Assembly (NCBI GenBank): GCA_002762785.1
Contig: PCXY01000004.1
Location: 186,001 to 250,000, forward strand
Direction: 5' to 3'
Length of the DNA: 64,000 nucleotides
Origin: Candidatus Woesearchaeota archaeon CG10_big_fil_rev_8_21_14_0_10_45_16
GTDB lineage: Archaea > Nanobdellota > Nanobdellia > Woesearchaeales > GW2011-AR9
Position numbers and translations under genes: made by a program. Of this stretch, positions 1 through 36,324 are shown in pieces. Position 1 is the stretch's first letter. Each line of letters opens with the position of its first letter. The notes beneath the pieces were generated by a model. That model ran no database searches. It saw nothing but the letters and a program-made list of their open reading frames with translations, and was not told the origin of the DNA.

Positions 1-103
1 AGTTTCTCTCCAATCTTTGGCTTAGAGAGACTACTTCCTCTGGTTGAAGAATGCTGGTCTTCCCTCCGTTCTGGAGGATGAATGTGATGGTGTCTGGTAT
101 CAT
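1..103 (-). CDS. Partial CDS downstream of the sigma factor, unknown product
   Basis: An open frame on the minus strand starts at ATG 103, five bases after the sigma-factor stop codon, and runs off the left edge after 34 codons. It begins MIPDTITFILQNGG. The close spacing suggests co-transcription and possibly translational coupling with the sigma gene. Too little is visible to assign a function. A partner of the sigma factor would be the obvious guess from position, but nothing in the sequence supports that. Confidence 0.45.
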   Translation of the reverse strand, partial: MIPDTITFILQNGGKTSILQPEEVVSLSQRLERN

Positions 104-108
104 CCTGC

Positions 109-1278
109 TTAAGCCTTGCTCATCCTTTGCATCTCTAATGTGGCCAATTTTTTCCTAATTTTTTCGAGAGCTTTTCTTTCTATTCTTTCTATTCCCTGTC
201 TCGTCAACCCAACCTCTTCGCCGATCTCTTTCGGGAGCATCTCTCGCCCGCCATTATTTCCATCTAAACAATATCGAAGCGTAAGAACTCTTTGTTCGTT
301 TTGATCTAGTGTTGGAAGTACTGATCTTATCAATTCGAGCTGGTCTCTTTTGAGGATCACGGCCTCATCGTCCTGGCCGGAGTCTGCTGTCTCGGCAATC
401 CTATCCAGCAAGGTATCCTCGGAATCTTCACCGATCGGCGCATCTAATGATATCTGCCTTCCTCTTACCATCTTCTCACGTGATAGATAGAAACTTACTT
501 CCTTTGGATTGACGCCAGCTCTTTCAGCGATCTCTTCAACCGATACTCTCTTTCCTAGATCTCTTTTTAGTTCATTCTTGGCAATTACGATCTGATTTAA
601 TTTTCGATATCCCTCATCTCCGATCTTCAAACCCTTTTCTTCCCAGATCTTTCTGTTCATCATGGTTTTTATCCAATCTTTAGCATAGCTCATGAACCTG
701 ATTCCTCTTCGAGGATCATATTTTTCTAAAGCATGCATCAACCCGATGCTTCCTTCTTGGATAAAATCCATAAACCTTTCTTCGTATCCTCCTGCTCTGG
801 TGTATGCTTCTCTCCTGGTAAAATATCGTAACGAGTTTAAGAATTCGCCCGTCTCTCGATCGATCATCTTTAAGACTTGCTGCATCTTTTTATAGGGCTG
901 GCCGCCATGCTGTTCTTTCTGCCGTTCAATTCTCTTCTTCATAGCCTTGCGTATTTCTTTCCGAGACAGATTGTTGTAGATAAATCCAGCAGCTCTTTGG
1001 TATCTTTGGTCTTTCTGTTTCTTATTTCCAGATGATCGCAATTGATTCTCAAGATGACTCCATTTTTGTCGAACACGGTTTGATCCAGGATCATCTTTCA
1101 AGCGGTCTTCTAGTGAAGAATAGAGCATCTGGATCCCTTCGCTGTCACGGCAGAGAGTCGTGACTATCTCTTTATGATAGCTTTCTAGTCGCTGGAAGAA
1201 CCCTTTTTCTTCCTCTTCAGAGAGATATGGTACTCTACTCGTCCTATTGATGTAGATAGTGGTTGAATCTAGACTCAT
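109..1278 (-). CDS. Sigma-70 family RNA polymerase sigma factor (bacterial type)
   Basis: In bacteria this protein family directs core RNA polymerase to promoters. The 389-residue protein has a region 1.2-like segment (about 11-33), a clear region 2 (about 168-212, with FIQEGSIGLMHALEKYDPRRG and YAKDWIKTMMNRKI resembling the core-binding and -10 recognition helices), a region 3-like segment (245-295) and a region 4 helix-turn-helix (315-378, LPKEIGEEVGLTRQGIERIE). About 100 charged residues lie between regions 1.2 and 2. A TATA-like box (1301-1310) about 26 bases upstream of the ATG suggests leaderless transcription by the archaeal machinery. Bacterial-like sigma factors have been reported in a few DPANN single-cell genomes, so the family call is firm; whether it works with an archaeal polymerase is unknown. 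Confidence 0.9.
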   Translation of the reverse strand: MSLDSTTIYINRTSRVPYLSEEEEKGFFQRLESYHKEIVTTLCRDSEGIQMLYSSLEDRLKDDPGSNRVRQKWSHLENQLRSSGNKKQKDQRYQRAAGFIYNNLSRKEIRKAMKKRIERQKEQHGGQPYKKMQQVLKMIDRETGEFLNSLRYFTRREAYTRAGGYEERFMDFIQEGSIGLMHALEKYDPRRGIRFMSYAKDWIKTMMNRKIWEEKGLKIGDEGYRKLNQIVIAKNELKRDLGKRVSVEEIAERAGVNPKEVSFYLSREKMVRGRQISLDAPIGEDSEDTLLDRIAETADSGQDDEAVILKRDQLELIRSVLPTLDQNEQRVLTLRYCLDGNNGGREMLPKEIGEEVGLTRQGIERIERKALEKIRKKLATLEMQRMSKA

Positions 1279-1300: not shown

Positions 1301-1310
1301 TTTAAAAATT
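1301..1310 (-). promoter_or_regulatory. TATA-like box of the sigma gene
   Basis: An A/T-only stretch (AATTTTTAAA on the minus strand) is centred about 26 bases upstream of the sigma start codon, the usual archaeal TATA spacing for a leaderless mRNA. Confidence 0.5.
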
Positions 1311-1343
1311 ATATCATTAGAAATAGATTTTATGAAATCCTCG

Positions 1344-2072
1344 CTAACCCTCAGAAATGGTTTTCAGCAGTATAACATTGCCCCTTCCTTTTTTCACTTT
1401 CTCAACCAAACTTTTATGCTCCAGTTCCGTGATGATCAGGCTGACCTTGGCTTCAGACAGATACGCCATCTCTTTCCGCAGTTCCTTTTGGCTGATGCGG
1501 CCATCGTGTTTCTTGATGATCTCCAAAGCCTTTTCGACGTAGCCAGGTTCCTGCGCTAAGTCTTCTTTATGTTCTTCGATGGTCTTGGACTGTTCTATCT
1601 TCATCTTCTTCCTGAACTTACCCAAAGAGCCGTATCTCTTCCTGGCGGCGACTATTCTCCAGACGGCGAAAGCAAGGAATAATCCTGCTATTATGTACGA
1701 CCAGATATTGCTGCTTTCTTCTTCCACGCCAGCCAGAAGGTCCTCATCTGTCTCAGCCCATAATTCATCTTCATCGGTGAAATCGGGCAGCAAGAATAAG
1801 TCTAATTTGAACGTCCCTTCCTGTTGGATCAGAACTTTTTCGGTGACGGTTATCAAGCCTTTACGGGCTTCCAGCGTATAGGTTCCCGGGAGCAGCTCAA
1901 ACGCGTAATTACCATCTTTAGAAAGCAGCTTCTGGGCCGGAGTGGTATCGATCTCTAGTAATACGTCTTTTTCTACTTCCAGGTTGTCGTTATAGACCGC
2001 TCCCTGTAAAGTGGCTGCCGAAGCTAGTGGTATGAGGCAGAGGACCAATATCATGGCTATTTGATACCGCAT
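1344..2072 (-). CDS. Secretory membrane-anchored winged-helix protein
   Basis: The 242-residue protein has an N-terminal signal peptide (1-19), an extracytoplasmic beta-rich domain like the carboxypeptidase regulatory fold (about 20-100), a transmembrane helix (about 124-140) and a basic cytoplasmic tail. The tail ends in a winged helix-turn-helix (about 175-240, with ISQKELRKEMAYLSEAKVSLIITELEHKSLVEK). This matches the archaeal membrane-associated wHTH proteins of the COG2512 type, thought to be membrane-bound regulators. A TATA-like box (about 2092-2104) lies about 26 bases upstream of the ATG, so the message is probably leaderless. The target genes are unknown. Confidence 0.75.
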   Translation of the reverse strand: MRYQIAMILVLCLIPLASAATLQGAVYNDNLEVEKDVLLEIDTTPAQKLLSKDGNYAFELLPGTYTLEARKGLITVTEKVLIQQEGTFKLDLFLLPDFTDEDELWAETDEDLLAGVEEESSNIWSYIIAGLFLAFAVWRIVAARKRYGSLGKFRKKMKIEQSKTIEEHKEDLAQEPGYVEKALEIIKKHDGRISQKELRKEMAYLSEAKVSLIITELEHKSLVEKVKKGRGNVILLKTISEG

Positions 2073-2184
2073 ATGGTCGGGAGGACACTTCCCTTTATAA
2101 ATAATATAGCTGGGTTTTAGTCACTACTGCTGGATACTAAACTGCCCGAAAGCTTTATATATTAGTTCCTATTTTCAGGTAGTA

Positions 2185-2240
2185 AACATCTATCACCTCT
2201 TTTTCCCCAAGCCGGCTTTCGGGCTGGCAAGGGGTTTTTA
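2185..2240 (+). ncRNA. Candidate small RNA ending in a strong hairpin
   Basis: No CDS occupies 2073-2252. A TATA-like TTTATATAT at 2155-2163 predicts a plus-strand start near 2185. About 20 bases later comes a hairpin: CCCC (2205-2208), AA, GCCGGC (2211-2216), six-base loop, GCTGGC (2223-2228), AA, GGGG (2231-2234), followed by TTTTTA. The result would be a roughly 50-nt transcript with no ORF. The same hairpin could equally terminate transcription of the Nudix operon arriving on the minus strand. Confidence 0.35.
2205..2239. terminator. GC-rich hairpin with T-tract, possibly bidirectional
   Basis: Six paired bases (GCCGGC with GCTGGC, one G-T) are extended across AA/AA by four further pairs (CCCC with GGGG). 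TTTTT follows on the plus strand and the complement of TTTT (2201-2204) follows on the minus strand. It sits just after the leftward Nudix gene. Confidence 0.55.
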
Positions 2241-2252
2241 TAATCCTGATAT

Positions 2253-2762
2253 TTAATCTGACTTTGTAAATAATTTAAGATATTTGCCTAATGTGGGCAA
2301 GAATTCTTCTGGATGATCTCTTAGTTGCTTTTCCAGCTCATTTCTTTGAAACCATCTAACTTCTTCAACTTCATCTTCTTGGATAGTAAGATCATTACAA
2401 TCTTTATCGAGAATGAATGTAAACCATTGTGTGAAGTGATGGTATGGTCCTGTTGTTTCTGTTTTTGGACCGATCTTCGGACTTATATCTATCAGTCCTA
2501 ACTCTTCTTCTGCTTCTTTGATAATATTCTGTTCATATGTTTCGTCTTCATCCACCGTTCCAGCTACGGCAGGCCCCCATCTGTTGGGATGATGAGATTT
2601 CGTATGATGTCGTCTTGCAAGAAGAATATTTCCTTTTGAATTAGTGATCCATAATGCCGAAACTCTGTAAATATCCCTTTTGGTTAAAGTTCCTCGTTCT
2701 TTATGACCAATAATCTGGTCGTCATCATCAACAATAACTATTCTTGGTTTCTTTTTATCCAT
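2253..2762 (-). CDS. Nudix hydrolase
   Basis: Nudix enzymes hydrolyse nucleoside diphosphates linked to another moiety. The Nudix box lies at residues 68-90 (G x5 E x7 KEAEEELGL), with Lys in place of the usual Arg of the REUxEE core; the metal-binding glutamates are kept. At 169 residues the protein resembles the YfcD/isopentenyl-isomerase-like branch (ARRHHTKSHHPNRWGPAVAG before the box), so an IPP isomerase type 1-like role is an alternative. Its start lies inside the end of the upstream hydrolase gene (25-base overlap), which suggests translational coupling. Confidence 0.8.
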   Translation of the reverse strand: MDKKKPRIVIVDDDDQIIGHKERGTLTKRDIYRVSALWITNSKGNILLARRHHTKSHHPNRWGPAVAGTVDEDETYEQNIIKEAEEELGLIDISPKIGPKTETTGPYHHFTQWFTFILDKDCNDLTIQEDEVEEVRWFQRNELEKQLRDHPEEFLPTLGKYLKLFTKSD

Positions 2763-3520
2763 TTTTTCAAAATGTGTTTGACCTGAACTAAGTGAGCCTT
2801 ATCTCGGAATGTATGCAGGGCATCTTTGATGATATGCATCTCTTTTTTCCCAGGCAGCTTCTCAAATAAGATCTTCTGATGATCCGGCGGAGTAGACGTA
2901 TCTTTATCGCCGACTATCAGCAAGACTGGCATCGTTAATCTATCGACTTTACCTAGGAGATCATATTTCAACCGGTCTTCCATGTGCGACCATTTCAGCC
3001 TTTTGACAACGCCTGGTTTGGAATCGCTCTTCTCTTCGTTCCAACCTGTCTCTTTCCATCTTCTGAAGATGTCATTATTTCTAAATTTTGGTTTTTCCAG
3101 ACTTAATTTTCCTGAAACGACGGTAGATGTGGGAACAAGACCTTTTACTTTATGAGGATATTTCTCAGCAAAGAGTGTGATACAAAAACTACCCAAGCTA
3201 TGTCCGCATAACCAGAATGGTTCTTGATACCATGATTGGTCTGCTGACCAAGAGATAACATCTTCTAGATCTTCGAGATAATTGGTAGTGGTGGCATCTT
3301 CGTATGTGCCTTCACTCTCACCAAAAGTATTGGTAGTATCGAAACGGATGACGGTGAAGCCTTCTTCCCTAAACGTATCGGCAAACATCTTGATATGGGG
3401 CTGTTCTTTAAAACCACTAAGCCCATGCATCACGAAAGCCAGTCCCTTCTGGTCTGATGATCTCTCAATGATGACTGCTATCTTCTGTCCTTTCCTGTTT
3501 TCAATGAATAGCTTTTCCAT
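2738..3520 (-). CDS. Alpha/beta hydrolase (serine hydrolase)
   Basis: This is a 260-residue alpha/beta-hydrolase fold protein. The nucleophile elbow is GHSLGS with Ser108, the acid is probably in VGDKDTSTPP (about residue 205) and the catalytic His is in DALHTF (about 240). The MHGLSG motif near residue 31 forms the oxyanion region. It resembles COG1073/COG1647 esterase or peptidase-like hydrolases; the substrate is unknown. It is the first gene of a two-gene operon with the Nudix gene. A TATA-like box (about 3545-3554) lies upstream. Confidence 0.8.
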   Translation of the reverse strand: MEKLFIENRKGQKIAVIIERSSDQKGLAFVMHGLSGFKEQPHIKMFADTFREEGFTVIRFDTTNTFGESEGTYEDATTTNYLEDLEDVISWSADQSWYQEPFWLCGHSLGSFCITLFAEKYPHKVKGLVPTSTVVSGKLSLEKPKFRNNDIFRRWKETGWNEEKSDSKPGVVKRLKWSHMEDRLKYDLLGKVDRLTMPVLLIVGDKDTSTPPDHQKILFEKLPGKKEMHIIKDALHTFRDKAHLVQVKHILKKWIKRNQE

Positions 3521-3554
3521 CTTTACGAAGATGAAAAGAAGACTTTTTTTATAA

Positions 3555-5297
3555 TCATTTCTTCTTTTTCATGAACACCAGCACCAGCGTGATCAGCACG
3601 CCTAAAGCAAAGCCTTCCAGCAGCAGCATGATCTCTTTTTGCAGGATGAATTCTCCAATTCTACTTGCTGTTGTCATCTCTTCAGGGAAATAGATGCTGA
3701 AATCACTCATCTCTAAAGCGTATTCTAGATATACCAGGCTGGTAGGCAGCTCATCCGTCTGCAAAGCCTGCGCGTATTGGTAGTAAGAATAGCCGAGGAT
3801 AGGAAACACGCCTTGCTGGCTGTTCTCAAAGATGATCCTTCCAGCAGCCTCCTTCTTGCTGTTGAAAAGGTCCTGCTCAGTCTCATTTGTTAACCCAAAC
3901 GAACTGAGGATGGCATTGGCGTCGGCTTTCGCCTGCGAGGCGATGATCAGACAGAGAGCCGTCTCATTATGGTTCAAAGCAGCTCGGGCTTCATCATTCT
4001 TGTCATTGAGATGTCCGACCTGGAACTGGCTGAGGAACAGGCTGGCGTATTGGTAGCGTTCTTCTGCTTCTGAGATCTTCTGCTGGCAGGAGATCTTGAG
4101 AAGATCGTCATCGACGACGATCCTGGCTCCGTCCATATTAAAAAACTGCATCCAGGCCAGAGCTGAGTAGAAACGTTCTTCAGCATAGGCCAGCAGATTA
4201 TATTGTTCTTCTTTCGTCAGATTATCTTCTGTAAATGTCTTGACCTGCTGCCGGACATCATGTAATCTTTCTTGTACTACCATCAGAGCCTGCAGATCGG
4301 AGATGGTCTCGATCTTTTCCTGTCGTACTTTTTCTTCTGTAAGATCGACTTTCTTGCTAAGACCGTTGATGATGTTGAGCATCGCTTCCGGTGACAGTTG
4401 TTTGTGCTGATAGAACTCTCGTTTAAGCTGGATGTTGTTGGCAAAGCAGAAGCTGGCGGCAGAATAGTAATCGCCCTGAGAAGTAGAATTCTCCATGCTG
4501 GCTTTTCTTTTGGCGATGGTTTTGATGGTATCATTGTTAAGATTAACACCGAAGCTATCGGCTTCTATCTCTCCTGTCCGCTGGCATAAAGCCTCCTGCA
4601 GTCCTTTCATGATCGCCTGATACTGTGGGTTCTCTTCTAGTGAGAAAGGTTTGTTATTTAATTCCTCTCCGGTGAGCTGGAACACCACTTCGTCCAGGGT
4701 CAGCACCTCTTCCACATCGATGCTGAGGTTATCTTTTCCATAAGCGATCAGGTCCAGACCCTCTGTCTCGTTGTCTTTCGGCGGAACTTTAGCTGTTCCC
4801 TTAGCGATCAACACTTTCTTAAGGTTGTTGCCGGCAGCCGCTTCGATCTTCTGCTTGACACCGCCGACAGGACCGATGATCGCACCCGAGTTGATGGTTC
4901 CGGTGATGGCTATCTCTTCAGTGTAATCAAGATCACTGACGGCGATCGTTGTCAGGGCTGCCATGGCCGCACCGGCGCTGGGGCCGCCGATGATACTTGT
5001 ATCTGATTTTATGGTGTAGATAAAGTCGTATCTGTTACAATCCAGCTTGAAATGCTTGCAGGCGATCTCTTTGGCGAATCGGGTTGAGAATTGCGTGTCT
5101 ACCTTCGTTGCCGGGAAAGTGTCCAGGAAGACCCTTCCGTTTCCTGGTATCAGCTCCAGGTAAAGGTCGGCACTGCTGCCGACCAATCCATCATCTGTTT
5201 CTTGCACAGCTAATAATGTAAGATGATATTGGTCCTGAGCTGTCGCAAAAGCAGCCAGAAGCAGGACGGTCAATAATATGATCACTCCCCTTTTCAT
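3555..5297 (-). CDS. Secreted, membrane-anchored Lon-like S16 serine protease
   Basis: The 580-residue protein has a signal peptide (1-20), an S16 protease domain (about 25-210) and a long helical domain. It ends in a transmembrane helix (about 556-576) followed by a basic tail. Catalytic Ser107 (GGPSAGAA) and Lys150 (GGVKQK) are 43 residues apart, as in Lon. There is no AAA ATPase domain. It matches archaeal stand-alone S16 proteases (COG1750 type) and probably acts outside the membrane on unfolded or small substrates. A TATA-like box at about 5320-5330 suggests its own promoter, just after the riboflavin operon. Confidence 0.85.
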   Translation of the reverse strand: MKRGVIILLTVLLLAAFATAQDQYHLTLLAVQETDDGLVGSSADLYLELIPGNGRVFLDTFPATKVDTQFSTRFAKEIACKHFKLDCNRYDFIYTIKSDTSIIGGPSAGAAMAALTTIAVSDLDYTEEIAITGTINSGAIIGPVGGVKQKIEAAAGNNLKKVLIAKGTAKVPPKDNETEGLDLIAYGKDNLSIDVEEVLTLDEVVFQLTGEELNNKPFSLEENPQYQAIMKGLQEALCQRTGEIEADSFGVNLNNDTIKTIAKRKASMENSTSQGDYYSAASFCFANNIQLKREFYQHKQLSPEAMLNIINGLSKKVDLTEEKVRQEKIETISDLQALMVVQERLHDVRQQVKTFTEDNLTKEEQYNLLAYAEERFYSALAWMQFFNMDGARIVVDDDLLKISCQQKISEAEERYQYASLFLSQFQVGHLNDKNDEARAALNHNETALCLIIASQAKADANAILSSFGLTNETEQDLFNSKKEAAGRIIFENSQQGVFPILGYSYYQYAQALQTDELPTSLVYLEYALEMSDFSIYFPEEMTTASRIGEFILQKEIMLLLEGFALGVLITLVLVFMKKKK

Positions 5298-5333
5298 GAA
5301 GCTAAAGATAAAGATGATGACTTATAAATATAT

Positions 5334-5900
5334 CTATAACAGATGCCCCAGCTTCTCTTTCTTCGTCTCTAGATAGAAAGCATTGTGCTGGTTCTTATCC
5401 ATGATGCTAGAACCTCTTTCAACTTTGATGCCTTTTTCTTGCAGCCCTTTGACTTTTCTAGGGTTGTTGGTCAGCAGCCTGACGGACTTCACGCCTAAAG
5501 ATTGTAATAGCCTTGCTGCGGCAGTATAATCTCTTAGGTCGGCTGCAAAACCCAGCTTTTCATTTGCTTCCACTGTGTCATACCCTTGTTCCTGTAATTG
5601 ATATGCTTTTAACTTGTTGGACAAGCCGATGCCGCGGCCTTCCTGTTGCAGGTAGATCAATATGCCAATGCCTTCTTGTTCGATCCTCATTAGAGCATCC
5701 TGCAGCTGCTCCTGACAGTCACAGCGTAGTGAACCAAAAACCTCAGAGGTGAAACAGGAAGAATGCACCCTGGTCAGGACCTCTTCTTTTCTGGAGACAT
5801 CGCCTTTCATCAGAGCGTACCCCCCATTGAACTCCAGCATCTGGAAGGTACCATGTTTCGTGGGTAAGTTAATCTTTAACATCTTTAATCTCTTTAACAT
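5334..5900 (-). CDS. ribA: GTP cyclohydrolase II
   Basis: RibA converts GTP to the pyrimidine precursor of riboflavin. The zinc ligands are seen in CFTSEVFGSLRCDC; the active-site segments YLQQEGRGIGL and TNNPRKVKGL are intact. At 188 residues it is the normal size for a stand-alone RibA. It is the bacterial enzyme, not archaeal GTP cyclohydrolase III. The first ATG (5900) overlaps the ribB 3' end by 32 bases within a tandem 18-bp repeat; the in-frame ATG at 5882 is a plausible alternative start. Last gene of the rib operon. Confidence 0.93.
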   Translation of the reverse strand: MLKRLKMLKINLPTKHGTFQMLEFNGGYALMKGDVSRKEEVLTRVHSSCFTSEVFGSLRCDCQEQLQDALMRIEQEGIGILIYLQQEGRGIGLSNKLKAYQLQEQGYDTVEANEKLGFAADLRDYTAAARLLQSLGVKSVRLLTNNPRKVKGLQEKGIKVERGSSIMDKNQHNAFYLETKKEKLGHLL

Positions 5901-6468
5901 CTTTGATCTCTTTAATAGAAATTAGGGGGATATTTTCTTTCGAAGCAAAATCGCTAAGTTCCTGTCCGCGCATCATCGTCCCGTCTTGGTTCATCAGTTC
6001 GCAGATGACACCAGCGGGATATAATCCTGCTATCCCCAGCAGTTCCACACTAGCTTCTGTATGTCCCTGTCTTTCTCTAAGGCCGTCTTTTGCCGCCCGC
6101 AACGGAAAAACATGACCTGGTCTTCCTAGGTCTTCTGCTTTCCCGGAGATCAGCGTTCTTATGGTCAACAATCTGTCTCTGACGCTGACACCGCCGTCTC
6201 GTATCTTTTTAGCATCAACAGAAACCGTGAACGGTGTCTGAAACTTATCGGTATTGTTCTCAACCATGGGCTTCAATTGCAGTTCCCGTAACCGTTCATC
6301 AGTCATAGCCACACAGATTATCCCGGAACAATATTTGAGCATGAACCGCAGGTGTCCTTCTGTTACCATCTCACCAGCGACCAGCAGATCTGCTTCATCT
6401 TCCCGATCTTTATCATCAACGATAATGACTGATCTTCCCTGTTGCAGATCACTTATTGCTTGTTGCAT
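5869..6468 (-). CDS. ribB: 3,4-dihydroxy-2-butanone 4-phosphate synthase
   Basis: RibB makes the four-carbon unit of riboflavin from ribulose 5-phosphate. The acidic motif DDKDREDEADL near residue 18 and the conserved RPGHVFPLRA and GHTEASVELL blocks are present. Length (199) is typical. The C-terminus carries a tandem KEIKDV repeat encoded by the 18-bp DNA repeat that also holds the ribA start. It overlaps ribH by 20 bases. Confidence 0.94.
   Translation of the reverse strand: MQQAISDLQQGRSVIIVDDKDREDEADLLVAGEMVTEGHLRFMLKYCSGIICVAMTDERLRELQLKPMVENNTDKFQTPFTVSVDAKKIRDGGVSVRDRLLTIRTLISGKAEDLGRPGHVFPLRAAKDGLRERQGHTEASVELLGIAGLYPAGVICELMNQDGTMMRGQELSDFASKENIPLISIKEIKDVKEIKDVKD
5878..5913. repeat. 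Two tandem 18-bp units at the ribB/ribA junction
   Basis: Units 5878-5895 and 5896-5913 are identical except for one base. Each contains an ATG in the ribA frame (5882 and 5900) and encodes KEIKDV in the ribB frame. A slip duplication would have lengthened both the ribB tail and the ribA N-terminus. Confidence 0.8.
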
Positions 6469-6856
6469 TGATCATCTGGATGCAGGCTTTGGTAACTTCC
6501 GCTGCTCTGGGTATCCTTTCGATAGCTTGTTCACGGTTCATCTTTGGTCCATTGATGCCAAGGACAACCGGTTTCTCATACTTCTGTTGTAGGTCTAACA
6601 GTTTATTGGCGACTGCATAACTGATGACACCGTCATGGTCGGTTTTTCCTTGCACCACTGCGCCTAGAGTTACGACACCGTCGATCTTTTCTTTTTCCAG
6701 TAAAATTTGTGTGCCGTAAGGGATATCAAAGCTCCCTGGAACTTTCAGCACTTCCGTCTCCACTTTGTTTTCTTTTGCTGTCTTTAAAGCCAGGTCCAGC
6801 ATCTTGCTGGTCAACAGTTCCCAATATGTTTCTGAAACGACTATTCCCAATCTCAT
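6449..6856 (-). CDS. ribH: 6,7-dimethyl-8-ribityllumazine synthase
   Basis: RibH condenses the RibB product with the ribityl-aminopyrimidine. The 135-residue protein contains the phosphate/pyrimidine-binding motifs VPGSFDIPYGTQ and LGAVVQGKTDHDG (His of the active site), and the AIERIPRAAE C-terminal segment typical of the family. It sits between ribC (4-base overlap) and ribB (20-base overlap). Confidence 0.93.
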   Translation of the reverse strand: MRLGIVVSETYWELLTSKMLDLALKTAKENKVETEVLKVPGSFDIPYGTQILLEKEKIDGVVTLGAVVQGKTDHDGVISYAVANKLLDLQQKYEKPVVLGINGPKMNREQAIERIPRAAEVTKACIQMINATSNK

Positions 6857-7305
6857 GCTATTTCCCCCGCATCATCATATCCTTGTCTTTTGCCCTGTCC
6901 GGCTTCCCTTGTCAGCTCGCTCTTGCCTTTCAGTAAGGCCAAAGCATTTTCAGTGTGTTTCTTTGCTCTATCTAGAGCTATCTCCTTCTGCTTCTTCTCG
7001 TCTCTGGTCTCTTTCTCATGGAAGAAGACTTTAAGGATGTGTTTGTTCGTCATAAGTTCTGCTTGTATCAGCCCTTGGTTGGCTTCATGGGCGCAGACCT
7101 CGTCGATATCTTCTTTTCCTACCCAACCGAATGCTATTACTATGTCGCAACCGTATTCCTCGATAAGTTTCTTGCAGGCAACCGGCAGGTCTTTGAAACC
7201 AGGAACGGTGTAGCGCTCTACCTGATGCTTGTTTCCGATGACTTGTAATGCTGTCTTAGCCATGTCCACCCGCGCGAACATGGTGTCTGCGATGCCGATC
7301 TTCAT
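6853..7305 (-). CDS. ribC: Archaeal riboflavin synthase
   Basis: This is the archaeal-type riboflavin synthase (COG1731), homologous to lumazine synthase and unrelated to bacterial RibE. It dismutates two lumazines to riboflavin. The start MKIGIADTMFARVDMAK and the motif VPGFKDLPVACKKL are diagnostic. I place the start at ATG 7305, which overlaps the ribK stop as ATGA; a longer frame from 7341 adds twelve non-conserved residues lying inside ribK. The resulting length, about 150, is normal. Confidence 0.92.
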   Translation of the reverse strand: MKIGIADTMFARVDMAKTALQVIGNKHQVERYTVPGFKDLPVACKKLIEEYGCDIVIAFGWVGKEDIDEVCAHEANQGLIQAELMTNKHILKVFFHEKETRDEKKQKEIALDRAKKHTENALALLKGKSELTREAGQGKRQGYDDAGEIA

Positions 7306-7934
7306 TGTAAGGTCAATATGTCTCCATCTTTTATCTTCCAACTGTCCCGCAACCTGATGGGAGCGATGATCTCGATGATATCTTTATGATGGGTGGTCCT
7401 TTCCGGCAGGACGATATGGGCAGCTATCTTCTTCTGGTTAAACTTTAAGGTTACAGGGTAGCTTATCAAGCCGCCGAAAGTTCTTTCTGTGGTGCTGAAA
7501 CCAGAGATGTGGATCGGTCTTTTGAGAAAAACTTCTACCTGTTCCCTTTCAACTTTAACATTTAACGTTCCTTCATACGGTTCGTAGCCGATCTTTTCTT
7601 TAAACTGTTTCTTGTATTGGGGAAGCGACATGTAATATTTACCTTCTCCTAAGCCTGACTGGACGGTGCAATTGACTTCTTTTTCTTTATCAAATACGCT
7701 GTGTAAAAGATGGTAATGTTTTTTCAGGAGTGATAACCCTTTCTCTGTCAGGGTGATGGTAAGACCTTGCGGGGTGACGTTCCGGTTGATAAGCCCTGTC
7801 TCTTCGCATTCCTTCAGTTTTCGGGAGACGGTCTGCTGGGAAACATTGACTTCTTCCGCAATCTGGCTGGTTGTCGTCTCTTCCTTCTTGCCTGAGAGAT
7901 ACAGAAGGATGGCATAAGTATCATTCCATTCCAT
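7302..7934 (-). CDS. ribK: CTP-dependent riboflavin kinase with N-terminal HTH (RbkR type)
   Basis: Residues 1-90 form a winged helix-turn-helix (SQIAEEVNVSQQTVSRKLKECEETGLINR). Residues 90-210 are the archaeal CTP-dependent riboflavin kinase (GLGEGKYYMSLPQYKKQF, GYEPYEGTLNVKV, LRDSWKIKDGDILTL). The family is known as RbkR, a regulator-enzyme fusion that represses riboflavin genes in some archaea. It leads the operon ribK-ribC-ribH-ribB-ribA, so autoregulation is likely; a candidate operator overlaps its start. Confidence 0.92.
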   Translation of the reverse strand: MEWNDTYAILLYLSGKKEETTTSQIAEEVNVSQQTVSRKLKECEETGLINRNVTPQGLTITLTEKGLSLLKKHYHLLHSVFDKEKEVNCTVQSGLGEGKYYMSLPQYKKQFKEKIGYEPYEGTLNVKVEREQVEVFLKRPIHISGFSTTERTFGGLISYPVTLKFNQKKIAAHIVLPERTTHHKDIIEIIAPIRLRDSWKIKDGDILTLQ

Positions 7935-7949
7935 ACATCCTGTAGAATG
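7927..7949. promoter_or_regulatory. Imperfect palindrome at the ribK start, candidate operator
   Basis: The 23-bp element has perfect CATTC/GAATG ends and further matched positions inside (seven Watson-Crick pairs of eleven). It covers the ribK ATG and lies just downstream of a TATA-like box (about 7955-7967), where a repressor would block transcription. Assignment to RbkR is inference from position. Confidence 0.35.
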
Positions 7950-7975
7950 AGGTTTACTTAAAAATGTTATGCTAC

Positions 7976-8398
7976 TTATTTTTGGATGCGCTTGATGAAT
8001 GACACTTTATCAAAACAATTGAAACCGAGAGTTTGCCAAAAATCTCCAGCTGTCGTGGACATAAGGGTGATAGTCCTACAACCGGTTTCCGTGAAATATT
8101 GTTCTATGGCTCTGTATAATTTTCTTCCATGACCTTGTCCTCTCTGTTCCGGAGCTATTTCGAATTCTTCGATAGATCCCCATCGGTCAGCATTTCTTGA
8201 AATATCAAAATGGGTGCTTCCCCAGCAACGTCCTTGCGTTGCTCTGTAAAATAAGTGAGTGCCGCCAGGAAAGATGTTGCCATAGACAGCATGATCTCTT
8301 TGATAGAATGGGAATTCCTGTTCGAGAGATTTTCGTAGTGTCTCACAATCTCTTCTTTCGTCTGCAGTCATCCTTTGCATCATCAATTGATGGTCCAT
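7976..8398 (-). CDS. GNAT-family N-acetyltransferase
   Basis: This is a 140-residue single-domain acetyltransferase. The acetyl-CoA pyrophosphate loop RGQGHGRKLY (about 88-97) and the C-terminal TAGDFWQTLGFNCFDKVSF are typical GNAT features. The substrate cannot be told from sequence. It lies between the rib operon and the divergent patatin gene. Confidence 0.85.
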   Translation of the reverse strand: MDHQLMMQRMTADERRDCETLRKSLEQEFPFYQRDHAVYGNIFPGGTHLFYRATQGRCWGSTHFDISRNADRWGSIEEFEIAPEQRGQGHGRKLYRAIEQYFTETGCRTITLMSTTAGDFWQTLGFNCFDKVSFIKRIQK

Positions 8399-8477
8399 AT
8401 TTTATTCGAGATAGGGTTTATTTTAAAATGTTTTCTAACAGAAAGAAAGATAAACCTTAATGCTATTACTTCTAGTG

Positions 8478-29096: not shown

Positions 29097-29330
29097 ATGA
29101 CCAGCCCCGCAAAACACATCCTCGTACCGTCTCATGTCAAGCTCTCTGACAAGGAGAAGGAAACTTTCTTACAGTCTCAAAATCTTACTATCAAAGAACT
29201 TCCTAAAATCTTGGTAAATGATCCTGCTTTGATCGGTTCCGGTGCTAAAGAAGGAGACATCATCAGGATCGAACGGGCTAGCGCTACTGCTGGCAAGACA
29301 TTTTATTATAGGGTGGTAATCAATGGATAA
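29097..29330 (+). CDS. rpoH: RNA polymerase subunit H
   Basis: This is the small Rpb5-like archaeal subunit (77 residues), with VPSHVKLSDKEKE at the start and the conserved LPKILVNDPA and GDIIRIERASATAGKTFYYRVV. It opens the polymerase operon and overlaps rpoB'' by 8 bases. Confidence 0.95.
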   Translation: MTSPAKHILVPSHVKLSDKEKETFLQSQNLTIKELPKILVNDPALIGSGAKEGDIIRIERASATAGKTFYYRVVING

Positions 29331-30801
29331 TAACAGGTCTATCCTTATCAAGAAATATTTTGAAGAGAAACGCTTCGTAGATAGCAACATCCAATCATTC
29401 AATAATCTGCTGGAGAACGGTCTTCAGGAAGTCATTGAAGAGAACAAAGAAGCTGAACCGACCATCATCCCGGCTAACATCGAAAAATTTAAGATCCGTT
29501 TTGGCCGCATCACTATCGGTAAGCCGGAGATCACGGAGGCTGACGGCAGTAAAAGACCGATCTATCCGATGGAGGCGCGTCTGCGAAAGATCTCTTATAA
29601 TGCTCCTATCTATCTTGAAGTCAACACTTATATCAATGATGTACAGCGTGAGAACTTCGTGGCTGAAGTCGGCAAGCTGCCGATCATGCTTAAAAGTAAG
29701 TTCTGCCACCTGGACGGCTTGAAACGGGAGGACCTTTTGAAACAGGGAGAAGACCCTTCTGATCCAGGCGGTTATTTTATCATCAACGGCACTGAAAGGG
29801 TCATCGTCAATGTGGAAGATCTGGCTCCTAACAACTTCATGGTTGAGCAAGCTTCATCCGGGGAATTTGTCGGTCGTTTCTTCGCCGCCCGCGGTTCCTA
29901 TAAGATTCCGCATAGTTTCGAACGCAAGAAGGATGGCATCTATTACATCTCGTTCACCCGTGTTAAGCAGATGCCTATCGTTGTTGTCTTGAAAGCTCTT
30001 GGTCTGGTCAAAGATGAAGAGATCATGAAATCAGTTTCCAAAGACAGAAGTTACGATGAGCTTATCCTTAACCTATTTGAATTTGTCGACATAAAAACTC
30101 AGGATGATGCTATCGATTTTATCAGTAAGCAGATCGGTGTCGGTCAGACCAAAGAGATCCGTGTTGAAAGGACCAAAGAGATCCTGGAGAAATACTTGTT
30201 CCCAAATATCGGCATGACTCAAGAGAACCGCCCGGAAAAAGCCATTAACCTTTGCAAGATGCTCAAAAAATATATTGACGTCGCTTCCGGGCAGAGACCG
30301 TCTGATGACAAGGATCATTACATGAACAAGCGGATCAGGATGAGCGGTGACCTTTTGCTGGACTTGTTCCGGGTCAACTTTAAAGTCCTTGTCGGGGATA
30401 TCCTTTACAACTTCCAGCGTATCATCAAGCGAGGTAAGCTTCCTTCGATCAGGGTCATCATCCGTGACAAGCTGTTAACATCTAGATTATACTCATCCAT
30501 GGCCACTGGCGAATGGGTCGGCGGCAGACAAGGGGTTTCACAGCGTATGAGCCGTACTAATTTCCTGGATATGGTCTCACACTTGCAGAGGGTCGTCAGC
30601 CCGCTGTCTAGCGCTCAGGAGAACTTCGAAGCGAGAGCCTTGCACTGTACCCATCTAGGCCGGCTGTGTCCTATCGAGACTCCCGAAGGTACTAACATCG
30701 GTCTACGTAAGAACCTGGCCATGCTCTGTTCACTATCACAAAACGTTCCAGAAGACAAGGTTCTGGAATCATTGAAAACCATCGGGTTACGGGAAGCATA
30801 A
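29323..30801 (+). CDS. rpoB2: RNA polymerase subunit B'' (N-terminal half of beta)
   Basis: This 492-residue protein forms the lobe and protrusion of the second-largest subunit. GGYFIINGTERVIVNVEDLAPN, RIRMSGDLLLDLFR and the fork region HLGRLCPIETPEGTNIGLRKNLA identify it. The B subunit is split, as in many euryarchaeal and DPANN lineages, with B' starting 2 bases later. Confidence 0.97.
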   Translation: MDNNRSILIKKYFEEKRFVDSNIQSFNNLLENGLQEVIEENKEAEPTIIPANIEKFKIRFGRITIGKPEITEADGSKRPIYPMEARLRKISYNAPIYLEVNTYINDVQRENFVAEVGKLPIMLKSKFCHLDGLKREDLLKQGEDPSDPGGYFIINGTERVIVNVEDLAPNNFMVEQASSGEFVGRFFAARGSYKIPHSFERKKDGIYYISFTRVKQMPIVVVLKALGLVKDEEIMKSVSKDRSYDELILNLFEFVDIKTQDDAIDFISKQIGVGQTKEIRVERTKEILEKYLFPNIGMTQENRPEKAINLCKMLKKYIDVASGQRPSDDKDHYMNKRIRMSGDLLLDLFRVNFKVLVGDILYNFQRIIKRGKLPSIRVIIRDKLLTSRLYSSMATGEWVGGRQGVSQRMSRTNFLDMVSHLQRVVSPLSSAQENFEARALHCTHLGRLCPIETPEGTNIGLRKNLAMLCSLSQNVPEDKVLESLKTIGLREA

Positions 30802-30802
30802 A

Positions 30803-32605
30803 ATGGCAGAAGTATATATCAACGCAAAATATGTCGGAACTGTAGATGATCCTCGCTCTTTTGTCAGCGATATCAAAGATCTTAGAAGGAAAGGCACTTT
30901 GCCTGATGATATTAACATTTTCCATAATAAAGAAGTTGACGAGATCTACGTCATGTCTGATGAGGGCCGAGCTAGACGTCCGCTAATCATCGTCAGGGAA
31001 GGCAAGACCCTTCTGACTGAGAAACATCTTGAACAGCTGAAAGACGGTGAGCTTACTTGGGTTGACCTCGTACGTCAAGGTGTTATCGAATATCTTGATG
31101 CTGGTGAAGAAGAGAACGCCCTCGTGGCTTACAGGCCGGAAGATCTTACCGAGAGCCACACTCACATGGAGATCACACCGGGTTCTATCAGTGGCGTCGC
31201 TACCGCTTTAGTTCCTTTCGGGAATTACAACCAATCCTCACGCCTTATCATCGGCAGCAAGAACCAGAAACAGTCTCTTGGTTTCTATGCCGCTAACTTC
31301 CATCTAAGGATGGATATGGACGCCAACATCCTGCACTATCCGCAGTTTCCTATCGTCAAGACCAGGATCCATGACGTGACTGATTATGAAGAGCATCCTT
31401 CCGGCCAAAACATGGTCGTAGCTGTCATGTGTTATGATGGTTATAACATGGAAGACGGTGTCATCCTTAACAAAGGCTCTATCCAACGTGGTCTGGCCCG
31501 AAGCACTTATTTCACGCCGGTAAAAGCTGAAGAGCTCCGTTACTCCGGCGGTCTTATTGATGAAGTGGCAGTACCGGACAAAGAAGTTAAAGGTTACCGC
31601 AGTGAGCGTGATTACCGCCACCTGGAAGCAGATGGTATCGTCTCTCCCGAAGCTTTCGTCGAAGAGGGCAATGTTGTTATCGGTCGTACCAGCCCGCCGC
31701 GATTCTTAAGCGGCATGGATGAATATAACCTTTCTGGTTCTATCCGTCGTGAAAGTTCCGTCGCATTAAAACATGGTGAGCAAGGCATTGCCGATTTCGT
31801 AGTACTTACTGAGAACGAAGAAGGTAACAAGTTGGTGCAGGTACGCTTAAGAGAAGAACGTGTCCCGGAGATCGGCGACAAGTTCACGTCCCGTCACGGA
31901 CAGAAAGGAGTTACCGGCATCTTGGTGCCGCAGGCAGATGCGCCTTTCTCAACTTCAGGTATCGTTCCTGATCTCATCTTTACACCTCATGGTATATCCT
32001 CGAGGATGACTATCTCACATCTGGTGGAACTTCTGGGTGGAAAAGTAGGAGCACTTGGCGGCCGTTATGTTGACGGTACCTTGTTTGAATCTGAAAAAGC
32101 TGAAGACCTCCGTAAAGAGCTTCTCACTTTAGGATTCCGTGAAGATGGTACTGAGATCTTCTTCGATGGACGTACTGGCAAACAGATGCTGGCCAAGATC
32201 TATGTCGGCAATATGTATTACCTGCGTCTGCGCCACATGGTCGCTAACAAGATGCAGTCCAGGGCCCGCGGTCCTATCCAGCTTTTGACAAGACAGCCTA
32301 CTGAAGGGAAAGCCAAAGAAGGCGGTCTTCGACTGGGAGAGATGGAGAAAGATACCTTTATCGCTCACGGCGCTTCTCTCTTGTTGAAAGAGCGGTTCGA
32401 TTCAGACCGTGTTACCGTTCCAGTCTGTGAGAAGTCTGGTCTTGTCGGCTATTATGATGCCAGAACTAACAAGTTGATGTCTCCCGTATACGGAGAAGAT
32501 TCAGATATCTCATATGTAGAGATGAGCTACGCCTTCAAACTTTTGCTTAATGAGCTGATATCTTTAGGTATCCATCCTAAGATAGAACTTGAGGACAAAT
32601 ATTAG
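30803..32605 (+). CDS. rpoB1: RNA polymerase subunit B' (C-terminal half of beta)
   Basis: The 600-residue subunit includes the hybrid-binding and wall domains. Motifs: MVVAVMCYDGYNMEDGVILN, GDKFTSRHGQKGVTGIL and the C-terminal KMQSRARGPIQLLTRQPTEGKAKEGGLRLGEMEKD, plus a zinc-type VCEKSGLVGYYD remnant with only one Cys of the usual clamp ribbon. Confidence 0.97.
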   Translation: MAEVYINAKYVGTVDDPRSFVSDIKDLRRKGTLPDDINIFHNKEVDEIYVMSDEGRARRPLIIVREGKTLLTEKHLEQLKDGELTWVDLVRQGVIEYLDAGEEENALVAYRPEDLTESHTHMEITPGSISGVATALVPFGNYNQSSRLIIGSKNQKQSLGFYAANFHLRMDMDANILHYPQFPIVKTRIHDVTDYEEHPSGQNMVVAVMCYDGYNMEDGVILNKGSIQRGLARSTYFTPVKAEELRYSGGLIDEVAVPDKEVKGYRSERDYRHLEADGIVSPEAFVEEGNVVIGRTSPPRFLSGMDEYNLSGSIRRESSVALKHGEQGIADFVVLTENEEGNKLVQVRLREERVPEIGDKFTSRHGQKGVTGILVPQADAPFSTSGIVPDLIFTPHGISSRMTISHLVELLGGKVGALGGRYVDGTLFESEKAEDLRKELLTLGFREDGTEIFFDGRTGKQMLAKIYVGNMYYLRLRHMVANKMQSRARGPIQLLTRQPTEGKAKEGGLRLGEMEKDTFIAHGASLLLKERFDSDRVTVPVCEKSGLVGYYDARTNKLMSPVYGEDSDISYVEMSYAFKLLLNELISLGIHPKIELEDKY

Positions 32606-32617
32606 AGGACTACTGAC

Positions 32618-35191
32618 ATGAAACCGCAATTCGTATCCAAAAAGATCAAATCCATCTCTTTTGCAGTTTTGTCTCCAAAAGTCGTTAAAGACATGTCAGC
32701 GGCAAAAGTGGTGACCCCCGAGTTGTACGATCGTGAAGGCTACCCGGTTGACGGCGGTCTTATGGACACCCGTCTTGGTGTCATCGATCCAGGTCTGGTC
32801 TGTAAGACTGACGGACTAAAACTGAAAGATACTCTCGGTCACTTCGGCTATATCGAGTTGGCTCGTCCGGTGGTCCATATTAAATTTATCCGGCAAATAC
32901 TTGATCTTCTGAAGTCATCCTGCCGTTCTTGTGGAAAACTATTGATTCCGGAAGAGAATACTGCTAAGTATCGCAACCTTCTTAACAAGATGGGCGAAGA
33001 AGAAGGGTTTGAGTCACGTAGAAGACAGATCAAGATTATCGTCGATAAATACAAGAAAAAAGATAAATGTCCGCACTGCGGCGGCAAGCAGGAAAAGATC
33101 AAGCTTGATAAACCTTATAACTTTTATGAGAATGATACCAGGCTCAGCCCGATCGAAGTGAGGGCTAGATTAGAAAAGATCCCTGATGAGGAGCTTGGAT
33201 TGTTCGGATTTGCGCTGGGTTTCCGGCCGGAATGGATGGTCCTTACTATCTTGGGTATCCCGCCAGTTACCATGAGGCCGAGCATCACTTTGGAATCCGG
33301 CGAACGTAGTGAAGATGATCTTACTCACAAGTTGGGAGACATCGTCCGTATCAACCAGCGTCTTTTTGAAAACATCAACGCTGGAGCTCCTGAAGTCATC
33401 ATCGAAGACCTCTGGGACCTCTTGCAATATCATGTTACAACTTTCTTCGACAATGAGGTGCCGCAGCTGCCTCCAGCAAGACATCGCGGCGGCCAAGTGC
33501 TGAAAACGCTGGTCAATAGGATCAGCAGCAAGGAAGGACGTATCAGGCACAACCTGGCCGGTAAGCGTACTGATTTCTCAGCGCGTACAGTTATCAGCCC
33601 CGATCCTCTTATCGCTCTTAATGAAGTGGGTGTGCCGCAGGCCATGGCCATGAGCCTTACTGTCCCTGAAAGGATCAACGAGTGGAACATTGAATACCTT
33701 CGTAAATATGTTGAACGCGGTTCTAAAGTATATCCTGGCGCTAACTACATCATCAAACCCGATGGGCGCAGGAAAACAGTTACTGAGGAGACTAAAGAAG
33801 AGATCCTGGAGGAGCTTGCTCCCGGCTACGTCGTGGAAAGACACCTGATCGACGGTGACGTCGCTTTATTCAACAGGCAGCCGTCTTTGCACAGGATGAG
33901 CATGATGTGTCATCACGTAAAAGTCCTGCCGGGAAGAACTTTCCGTCTTAATCCCGCTGTATGTAATCCTTATAACGCAGACTTCGACGGTGACGAGATG
34001 AACCTTCACATCCCTCAGACTGAAGAAGCCCGCGCGGAAGCACAAGTTTTGATGCTGGTAGAGACTCAGATGATCAGCCCCCGTTACGGCCTTAGCGTCG
34101 TCGGCTGCATCCACGATGGTATCACTGGTAATTATCTTTTGACAAAGGAGCTGGTATTGACCCGCCTGGAAGCGGTAGACCTGCTTTATGCTTGCGGTGT
34201 CGACGACCTCTCACGTCTTCCTAATAAAGATAAGATCGATGGCAAAGAAGTGTTCTCTGTCCTGCTTCCTGAAGATTTCAATTTCAGCGGCAAGGATAAG
34301 AGCGGCAACGACGTTAAGATCACTAATGGTAAGTTGAAGACTGGTCTGATGGACAAAGCAAACCTTGGTCAGGAGTCAGGTCTGATGCTGCGTAATATCT
34401 ATGAGCGCTACGGTGCAGCCTATGCGGCTGAGTTCCTCGGCAAAGTCTCAAAACTAGGTATCAACGTTCTCTCACGAAGAGGTTTTTCTATCGGTATCGG
34501 CGACATGGACCTAACTAACGAGACAGAAGATGAGATCAAGTCCGTCTTGGAACGTGCTGAACTGGAAGCTGAAAAGATCATCGAACATTTCAATCAAGGA
34601 AAGCTGGAACCGCTGCCCGGCAGATCATTGCAGGAAACGATGGAACTGCGTATCCTGGAAGCTTTGAACAGGGCTCGTAACAAGAGCGGGGATCTGGCCA
34701 TGCGGCAGAAATTTGACAGTGCTGCTTTGGTCATGGCAAAGTCAGGAGCAAGAGGTAATGCTTTGAACATCGCCCAGATGGCAGCTGTCGTCGGCCAGCA
34801 GGCTTTACGCGGCAGACGTATCGATCATGGTTACAGCGGTAGAACCCTTCCTTATTTTAAAGTTGGTGATGTCTCACCGAAAGCACGGGGATTCGTCCGC
34901 AACAATTTCAAAAGCGGTCTTACTCCGTATGAGTTTTTCTTCGGGGCCATGACTGGTAGGGACGCTCTGATGGATACTGCTTTGAGGACGCCTAAATCAG
35001 GTTACCTTTACAGAAGGCTTTCCAACGCTATGCAGGATCTTAAAGTTGATTATAACGGCATGGTCCGTGATGCCAGCAATCGGGTTGTCCAGTTCGCTTA
35101 TGGTGAAGACGGTCTTGATGTCTCACGCACAAAGAACGGCCAGGTCGACGTTCATCGTATCATCGAACAGGTTATAGGTGGCAAAGAATGA
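32618..35191 (+). CDS. rpoA1: RNA polymerase subunit A' (N-terminal part of beta')
   Basis: The 857-residue catalytic subunit has the metal-binding NADFDGD motif ([17 protein letters not shown]) intact, zinc ligands CRSCGKLL and CPHCGGK, and bridge-helix residues GREALMDTA-like ([24 protein letters not shown]). It overlaps rpoA'' by 4 bases. Confidence 0.97.
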
Positions 35192-36324
35192 AAGCAGAAA
35201 ACGCAAAACTAGTGGACACTTACGAAAACAAGCTGCCCTTTTCGGTCTTGGAAGAGATCAAAAATTCCGTTCCTGACAGCGCTTCCAAAGAGAACATCAA
35301 GACTATCCTTGAGGAAACCTTTGCATTATACCTACAGGCGAAGATCAATCCAGGCGAATGCGTCGGTCTGGTCTCAGCTGAAAGTATCGGCGAACCAGGT
35401 ACGCAGATGACCTTGAACACCTTCCACTTCGCTGGGGTCGCTGAGATGAACGTTACCACTGGTCTGCCGCGTATCATCGAGATTTTCGACTGCCAAAAGA
35501 CTATCAAGACGCCGATGATGGAAGTCTACCTTAAAGATCCTAAGATAGAGAATGTTAAAGCATTGGCTTTAAAGATCAAAGAGACCAAATTCAGCGAGTT
35601 CGTCACCTCTTATTCACTAAATATCTTCGAGCAGAACCTGAAAGTTACCCTCAGCAGGGAGCTTCTTGATGACCATGGTCTCGATGTGAAAGATATGATC
35701 AAAGCACTTAAGCTGAAAGCAAAAGGCTTTACTATGGAATCTGACGACGGATCTCTCACATTTATCCATAAAGGGAAACCTGAAGATATCAAAGATCTTT
35801 ACAATCTTAAAGAGAAATTAAAAGCCGTCAAGATCAGCGGCCTGAAAGGTATCAGGCAGGTTCTTCCGGTCAAGCGTGGTGAAGAATATATCGTCCTTAC
35901 TTCAGGTACCAACCTAAAAGAAGTTCTGGAGATGGATGAAGTTGACGCTACCAGAACCATCTGTAATGATATGAATGAAGTCTATCAGGTTCTTGGTCTG
36001 GAAGCAGCCCGGCAGACTGTTATCAACGAAGTCTACAAAGTTATCGAATCACAGGGCCTCAATATCGACATCCGCCATATCATGTTGGTAGCTGATATCA
36101 TGTGCGCTTCCGGCGTCTTACGTGGTATCACTCGTTATGGAGTCGTCAAGGAAAAAGCCAGCGTCCTGGCCAGGGCTTCATTTGAGACACCGATCAGGCA
36201 CCTTATCAATGCTGCCTTGGAAGGTGAAGTAGATGCTCTGACCTCCGTCGTTGAGAATGTTATGATCAACCAGCCGGTGCCGTTAGGAACAGGCTTACCC
36301 GGCTTGATTACAAAATTGAAATAA
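35188..36324 (+). CDS. rpoA2: RNA polymerase subunit A'' (C-terminal part of beta')
   Basis: The 378-residue subunit carries the trigger loop and jaw: [41 protein letters not shown] in the sequence, and the final clamp segment [21 protein letters not shown]. No intein or extra insertion. Confidence 0.97.

Follow-up and report, generated by a model that had tools for sequence, protein, structure and literature searches.

The finding of a sigma-70-family gene, sigC, at one end of a 64,000-nucleotide stretch of woesearchaeal DNA (the window, positions 186001-250000 of a 256 kb contig) raises the question of whether a bacterial-type sigma truly belongs to this archaeon and, if so, on what it could act in a cell with an archaeal transcription machinery. 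Archaeal sigma factors as a kind are already known, and were reportedly first described by Rinke and colleagues in 2013. The first archaeal sigma factors are credited to Rinke et al. (PMC6126073), and a sigma-70 family, fam00359, is described as present in DPANN and prevalent in Woesearchaeota, with mis-binning excluded, no anti-sigma and an unclear mechanism (Castelle et al., 2021; PMC8204110). The present case resembles fam00359, as portrayed there, in that a bacterial-type sigma is found in an archaeal genome with TBP and TFB. However, it differs in that the genome carries three sigmas, among them a tandem pair upstream of the isoleucyl-tRNA synthetase (IleRS) gene, and in that sigC appears to keep its core-binding face and to have lost -35 readout. 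The present analysis adds the recurrence of tandem pairs, an IleRS slot with zero, one or two sigmas, fusions of sigma region 4 to an RNA polymerase domain, very fast sigma divergence, and a mismatch between sigma and the polymerase clamp coil. The literature search, for which subscription papers lay mostly out of range, yielded no study of archaeal sigma function, tandem pairs or such fusions.

An intact sigma gene in an archaeal setting

The gene sigC is a single intact open reading frame with an ATG start (Table 1), and its product exceeds the Pfam cut-offs for Sigma70_r4 (1e-11), r3 (2e-10) and r2 (2e-8), with regions 2, 3 and 4 following in order on one chain and a PDB match covering residues 166-376; the complete sigma-70 reading frame reported by the initial annotation is thereby confirmed. 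Its statement that regions 1.2, 2, 3 and 4 are all recognisable holds for the last three and was slightly overstated for region 1.2, which is marginal (Pfam E 0.08 over residues 4-24, under the cut-off, and an alignment of just 0.7 bits between residues 4-38 and SigA region 1.2 in the PDB sequence search). The region 2 match spans profile positions 12-59 of 71 only. NCBIfam models of RpoS/RpoD type reach up to 133 bits, far under their cut-offs, and the general sigma70-ECF superfamily model TIGR02937 is exceeded (80.6 against a cut-off of 42.9); with 117 of 354 bits for TIGR02393 and the marginal region 1.2, sigC falls outside Group 1 (RpoD/SigA). The PDB sequence search returned bacterial SigA, RpoS and RpoD chains, headed by SigA at E 1.4e-30, and an AlphaFold2 model, all helical with a mean pLDDT of 75.6 and a pTM of 0.46, retrieved sigma chains of bacterial initiation complexes as its top Foldseek matches (E 1.7e-8), the placement of its domains being unsure (TM about 0.25). 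The likeness to bacterial group 1/2 sigmas (RpoD/SigA, RpoS) thus lies in regions 2-4 in order and in the top profile and PDB matches. However, sigC is at most 33% identical to them.

Table 1. Coordinates of the features discussed, in window positions or, where a locus is named, in positions of that locus.
Feature	Position	Strand	Description
sigB, 5' end	1..103	-	second sigma-70-family gene, 471 aa; extends beyond the window (genome C4 184688-186103)
sigC	109..1278	-	389 aa, sigma-70 family; leads a co-directional pair of sigma genes; profile, residue and AF2/Foldseek evidence
TATA-like box TTTTTAAA	1301..1308	-	23-30 bp ahead of the sigC ATG; close to the genome's TTTAAA peak position
Bacterial-promoter-like TTCATA-17-TATAAT, TGn extension	1308..1336	-	2 mismatches to consensus; just upstream of the TATA-like box
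wHTH neighbour	1344..2072	-	hydrophobic segment and C-terminal DUF7343/MarR-like winged helix, 242 aa; conserved
Lon_C neighbour	3555..5297	-	Lon_C (S16) protease-domain protein, C-terminal hydrophobic segment, 580 aa; conserved
Archaeal riboflavin synthase	6853-7341		TIGR01506
Archaeal RNA polymerase genes	29323..36324	+	B'' 29323-30801, B' 30803-32605, A' 32618-35191, A'' 35188-36324
ORF upstream of sigA (L005)	6945-9125	+	726 aa, TTG start
Fusion protein (L113)	1496-2710	-	sigma4-alphaCTD; sits in the IleRS slot
Tandem pair (L087)	5819-7171, 7240-8538	-	two sigmas
Very large sigma (L093)	1316-6541	+	1741 aa
Very large sigma (L097)	3952-6906	+	984 aa
Very large sigma (L075)	5385-8018	-	877 aa

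Three genes of the genome (1,178,529 bases, 98.27% complete, 0.57% contaminated) are matched by Sigma70_r2: sigC; sigB, whose start codon lies 5 bp past the sigC stop and which is followed by IleRS; and sigA on contig 2, an RpoD-like protein of 666 aa in which regions 1.2, 2, 3 and 4 all exceed the cut-off and which reaches up to 56% identity to bacterial RpoD over regions 2-4. MzaA, a sigma-70-family protein of the MZA anti-phage system (NF041931), ranks with the better-scoring NCBIfam models for sigA and sigB, but these matches are all far under the family cut-off. Immediately upstream of sigA lies a reading frame of 726 aa that matches nothing in Pfam at E 0.01 and has no relative in the remaining gene-called loci. 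The polymerase genes B'', B', A' and A'' match archaeal equivalogs over cut-off, the sole Rpb1_2 match in the genome is the archaeal A', and one TBP gene and one TFB gene are present, with two repeats each; no bacterial RNA polymerase was found in the genome by a PF00623 search, a further difference from the setting of bacterial group 1/2 sigmas. The pairing of a bacterial-type sigma with archaeal polymerase, TBP and TFB, as first proposed, is thus borne out by profile searches, and sigC fits the DPANN archaeal sigma class, a sigma-70 protein alongside archaeal transcription machinery. Archaeal genes do surround it, including a riboflavin synthase over the TIGR01506 cut-off 5.6 kb away and the polymerase genes; the latter are 28 kb off, and to place sigC "beside" them was loose wording.

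The bacterial type of the sigma sequence could point to a bacterial contaminant contig or a chimeric assembly. However, the window lies inside a long contig of a nearly complete and scarcely contaminated genome, IleRS, wHTH and Lon-domain neighbours flanking a sigma recur in independent genomes of other genera, the G+C of the first 2 kb (0.43-0.44) agrees with the rest of the window, and an archaeal-type promoter precedes sigC. Judged by contig position and recurrent gene order, there is no break near position 1300 of the kind that was to betray a contaminant, and contamination was rejected as so improbable that it may be disregarded. As to the promoter, the archaeal TATA box named by the initial annotation is there in the form of a TATA-like element that is presumably used: in front of the 52 genes of this genome that have 45 bp or more of free space there, TTTAAA was observed 25 times against 5.3 expected, with 15 occurrences in the bins that cover 26-35 bp ahead of the ATG, and TATAAT was not enriched before the same genes (4 found, 5.1 expected). 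The bacterial-promoter-like motif ahead of sigC scores z 2.7 and is kept as a lead only. Sigma-dependent promoters were rejected as an explanation, since bacterial promoter scores were no better for 33 sigma genes than for 380 other genes (Mann-Whitney p 0.30) and the window's mild surplus of -35/-10 pairs (89 against 64) was not tied to the 17 bp spacer.

The slot upstream of IleRS, tandem pairs and fusions

The initial annotation spoke of sigma-like proteins in a few DPANN single-cell genomes, an estimate that is too small: Sigma70_r2 was found in 127 of 371 sampled genomes of the phylum and in 93 of the 243 cleaner ones. Relatives of sigC itself are distant: of the order's 145 genomes, 40 gave a match, counting the host genome, and the best foreign identity is about 31%. 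A viral source was also considered and rejected, as exact-peptide patterns found no relative of sigC in viral contigs. IleRS was detected in 49 of 49 family genomes, and its upstream side was read in 44 family loci, 4 of them too short, which leaves 40 for comparison. One or two sigmas lie between the hydrophobic-segment wHTH gene and IleRS, or ahead of IleRS with no more than one gene intervening, in 16 of the 40 (G048, with two sigmas further upstream, was left out of this count); the wHTH gene precedes IleRS with no sigma in 10 (one with a 103 aa reading frame between), and other genes stand upstream in the remaining 14. A Lon-domain gene, often found upstream of the wHTH gene in the family, accompanies 5 of the 10 sigma-free cases. 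The slot upstream of IleRS is old and archaeal, and a sigma is optional in it. Because the wHTH gene stands at the slot without a sigma in ten genomes, the neighbours are not dedicated sigma partners, and an anti-sigma/protease module was rejected on the same counts. Outside the family, no neighbour cluster recurring widely with sigma was found.

Tandem sigma pairs occupy 8 of 80 gene-called loci, on the same strand with gaps of 5-149 bp, in an archaeal set for which known pairs were fetched on purpose and which is not a random sample. Taken in the order L004, L074, L080, L086, L087, L089, L090 and L091, the second gene keeps 5, 5, 5, 5, 5, 4, 4 and 5 of the five -35 residues, hence at least 4 in all eight, and the first keeps 1, 2, 4, 5, 2, 4, 0 and 5. 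By total residue score, six pairs have the less canonical sigma in first position, one pair is balanced and one (L091) has the more canonical sigma first, an asymmetry noticed post hoc in a small sample (n=8). The L087 pair brings together two different kinds of bacterial sigma: in the tree, one member groups with E. coli RpoH and its partner with FliA. Very large archaeal sigmas also occur, at L093, L097 and L075, with long N-terminal extensions that have no Pfam domains.

Five genomes (L113, L149, L151, L152 and L157) encode sigma region 4 joined to the RNA polymerase alpha C-terminal domain (alphaCTD), with no detected sigma region 2, and the fusions of L113, L149 and L152 are mutually related at 35-39% identity. 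PF03118 exceeds its cut-off in 12 of 343 genomes, not all of which represent such a fusion. The fusions show that bacterial promoter-reading modules exist in the phylum in forms unable to act as a normal sigma. Small alphaCTD-only proteins were seen as well, at L150 (G132), L159 (G246) and L153 (G137), one of them with the bacterial-like stretch LGMRLENY.

Divergence, residue retention and the polymerase clamp

Before a tree of 114 rows was built, 2 of the 85 archaeal sigmas were set aside as less than 60% filled, and keeping every third of the 80 bacterial sigmas removed 53. Archaeal sigmas occur in several places in it, one with E. coli RpoH (97), two with FliA (99) and one with RpoS (94), and because they are so scattered, several acquisitions are suggested. 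The comparison with bacterial and DPANN sigmas proposed by the initial annotation placed sigA among RpoD proteins and left sigC, with its long branch, in no firm position; support is missing from most deep branches, and the AU test did not reject a single clade for the slot sigmas (p 0.0502). Sigmas of the same genus are 54% (G101-G410) and 48% (G091-G353) identical, against 94-95% for A'; the adjacent IleRS is 92% identical in the former pair, and long flanking genes in the latter are mostly 81-92% identical, some 60-64%. The dN/dS of related sigma pairs, a set to which sigC does not belong, lies at 0.30-0.56 (6 of 7 with computable dS), so that selection on them is purifying though loose, and region 2 is the least diverged region in 6 of 6 within-genus pairs.

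Residues were compared in an alignment to E. coli RpoD of 85 distinct archaeal sigmas, drawn from loci matched by Sigma70_r2 or sigC together with hand-chosen regions, and 80 bacterial sigmas, the best 80 of 577 loci retrieved by a region 2.2 pattern, so that conservation of 2.2 in the bacterial set is inflated. Core-binding, -10, -12 and -35 roles were assigned to positions as we take them to be in bacterial sigmas, the beta' coil contacts apart. Conservation across the archaeal sigmas is highest at G411, D403 and G408 of region 2.2, followed by L551, F427, I435, Y430, A391, A431 and N383, which brings F427, Y430 and N383 of the -10 pocket within the top ten; the -35 residues R584, E585, R586, R588 and Q589 are retained in 66-70 of the 85, and some members have a ruined region 2.2 with 1 or 2 of 7 residues. 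As a class, archaeal sigmas keep the polymerase-binding and -10-melting residues, and such constraint is in keeping with a protein that contacts melted promoter DNA while bound to a polymerase. In sigC, 6 of 7 region 2.2, 6 of 9 melting, 1 of 3 -12 and 1 of 5 -35 residues are retained (5, 8, 2 and 5 in sigB; 7, 7, 2 and 5 in sigA). D403, Q406, E407, M413, G408 and G411 are kept and N409 is S, so that the core-binding positions 403, 406, 407, 409 and 413 read D, Q, E, S and M, with 4 of 5 kept. Relative to bacterial group 1/2 sigmas, N383, W433, Q437 and T440 have been lost (T, D, T and N in sigC), as have E585, R586, R588 and Q589 (Q, G, E and R). The aromatic melting residues, singled out earlier for inspection, are preserved at F427, Y430 and W434 but not at W433. 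sigC appears to keep the core-binding face and to have lost most of the -12 and -35 readout residues.

On the polymerase side, one source reports that R275, E295 and A302 of the E. coli beta' coiled coil are involved with sigma region 2.2, that R275Q, E295K and A302D impair holoenzyme formation, that the flap-tip helix holding sigma region 4 is commonly absent in archaea, and that region 2.2 mutants fold differently (PMC8321222). Conservation of 2.2 may accordingly be structural. The A' of the host has I, L and H aligned to R275, E295 and A302. Its coil closely matches an A' chain that is presumably of Thermococcus type and is nearly invariant in 26 further genomes of the family, 3 of the 30 A' loci having been left unread. 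No co-adaptation of the clamp coil to sigma was seen, in a thin comparison of sigma-bearing and sigma-free genomes that included only one genome with no sigma found (G183) and several untyped for sigma. When the core-binding helix is set against the A' clamp, as had been proposed, the sigma face is found kept but the A' coil is without its partner residues. There is thus a mismatch between a sigma class that retains the requirements of a working sigma and a host polymerase that shows no bacterial sockets.

Possible modes of action and their meaning

A model may be offered, tentatively and at less than even confidence, in which sigC is an auxiliary initiation regulator working on the cell's own archaeal polymerase. 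In this model, a DPANN-type archaeon acquired sigC horizontally as a genuine member of the sigma-70 family; the protein has diverged strongly and is probably transcribed from its archaeal TATA promoter and made together with the more canonical sigB. Its region 2.2 face could dock on the clamp coiled coil via contacts unlike the bacterial ones, and its altered -10, -12 and -35 surfaces may confer a promoter preference different from that of sigB and the RpoD-like sigA, or may place it in competition with them. The single Rpb1 gene, which is archaeal, the lone TBP and TFB genes and the lack of an apparent export signal speak for the cell's own polymerase as the target, and residue retention, the tandem pairs and purifying selection in related sigmas were counted on the same side; the I, L and H of the A' coil, the flap-tip helix commonly missing from archaea, the possibly structural basis of 2.2 conservation, the absence of a TATAAT excess before own genes and a -35/-10 excess that does not depend on spacer 17 were counted against it. 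Close behind in rank, possible but on the unlikely side, is that sigC is a DNA-binding regulator only, its sigma domains serving as helix-turn-helix modules with no contact to polymerase, as would agree with a clamp coil devoid of sigma partner residues, with the fusions that have no sigma region 2, and with those sigmas whose region 2.2 is ruined. However, nothing in the 85 sigmas is better conserved than region 2.2 and the single-strand -10 pocket, and within-genus pairs diverge least in region 2. Further, the plain DNA-binding protein envisaged by the initial annotation sits better with the relatives, which keep the -35 residues, than with sigC, which has lost four of the five.

It is distinctly less likely that sigC is a decaying or neutral import, a gene-transfer leftover expressed with no selected role, as its very long branch and insecure place in the tree, its lost -12 and -35 residues and the fast evolution of same-genus sigmas relative to A' might suggest; three intact reading frames in a single genome, purifying selection in the relatives and the presence of sigma in about a third of the sampled genomes all argue otherwise. 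That sigC works for, or takes over, a bacterial partner's RNA polymerase would account for a sigma class that keeps beta'-binding and bacterial promoter residues in a cell whose own polymerase has no partner residues for them. However, sigC and sigB both start at region 1.2 or close to it, so that an export signal would hardly fit in front; the host genome has no known bacterial partner, sigC would read bacterial promoters badly, and by PF00623 the genome itself offered no bacterial polymerase to capture, so that this option, also raised at first reading, is improbable. Returning to the auxiliary regulator of the archaeal polymerase, a wider form of the model, which we regard as rather unlikely, would have two initiation systems share one archaeal polymerase, TBP/TFB for ordinary genes on the one hand and a small set of fast-evolving sigmas in unequal pairs with non-bacterial docking on the other, where a partner that keeps hold of the polymerase but is a poor reader of promoters could tune or oppose the canonical sigma of the pair. 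Whether a sigma can drive or disturb a TBP/TFB-type polymerase matters for understanding the separation of life's two initiation systems. The host genome provides a compact test, with three sigmas of graded divergence and one polymerase whose clamp coil is devoid of the known sigma contacts, and the recurrent gene slot with zero, one or two sigmas can serve comparative work. A polymerase without matching docking residues thus sharpens the puzzle of DPANN sigmas and makes it testable.
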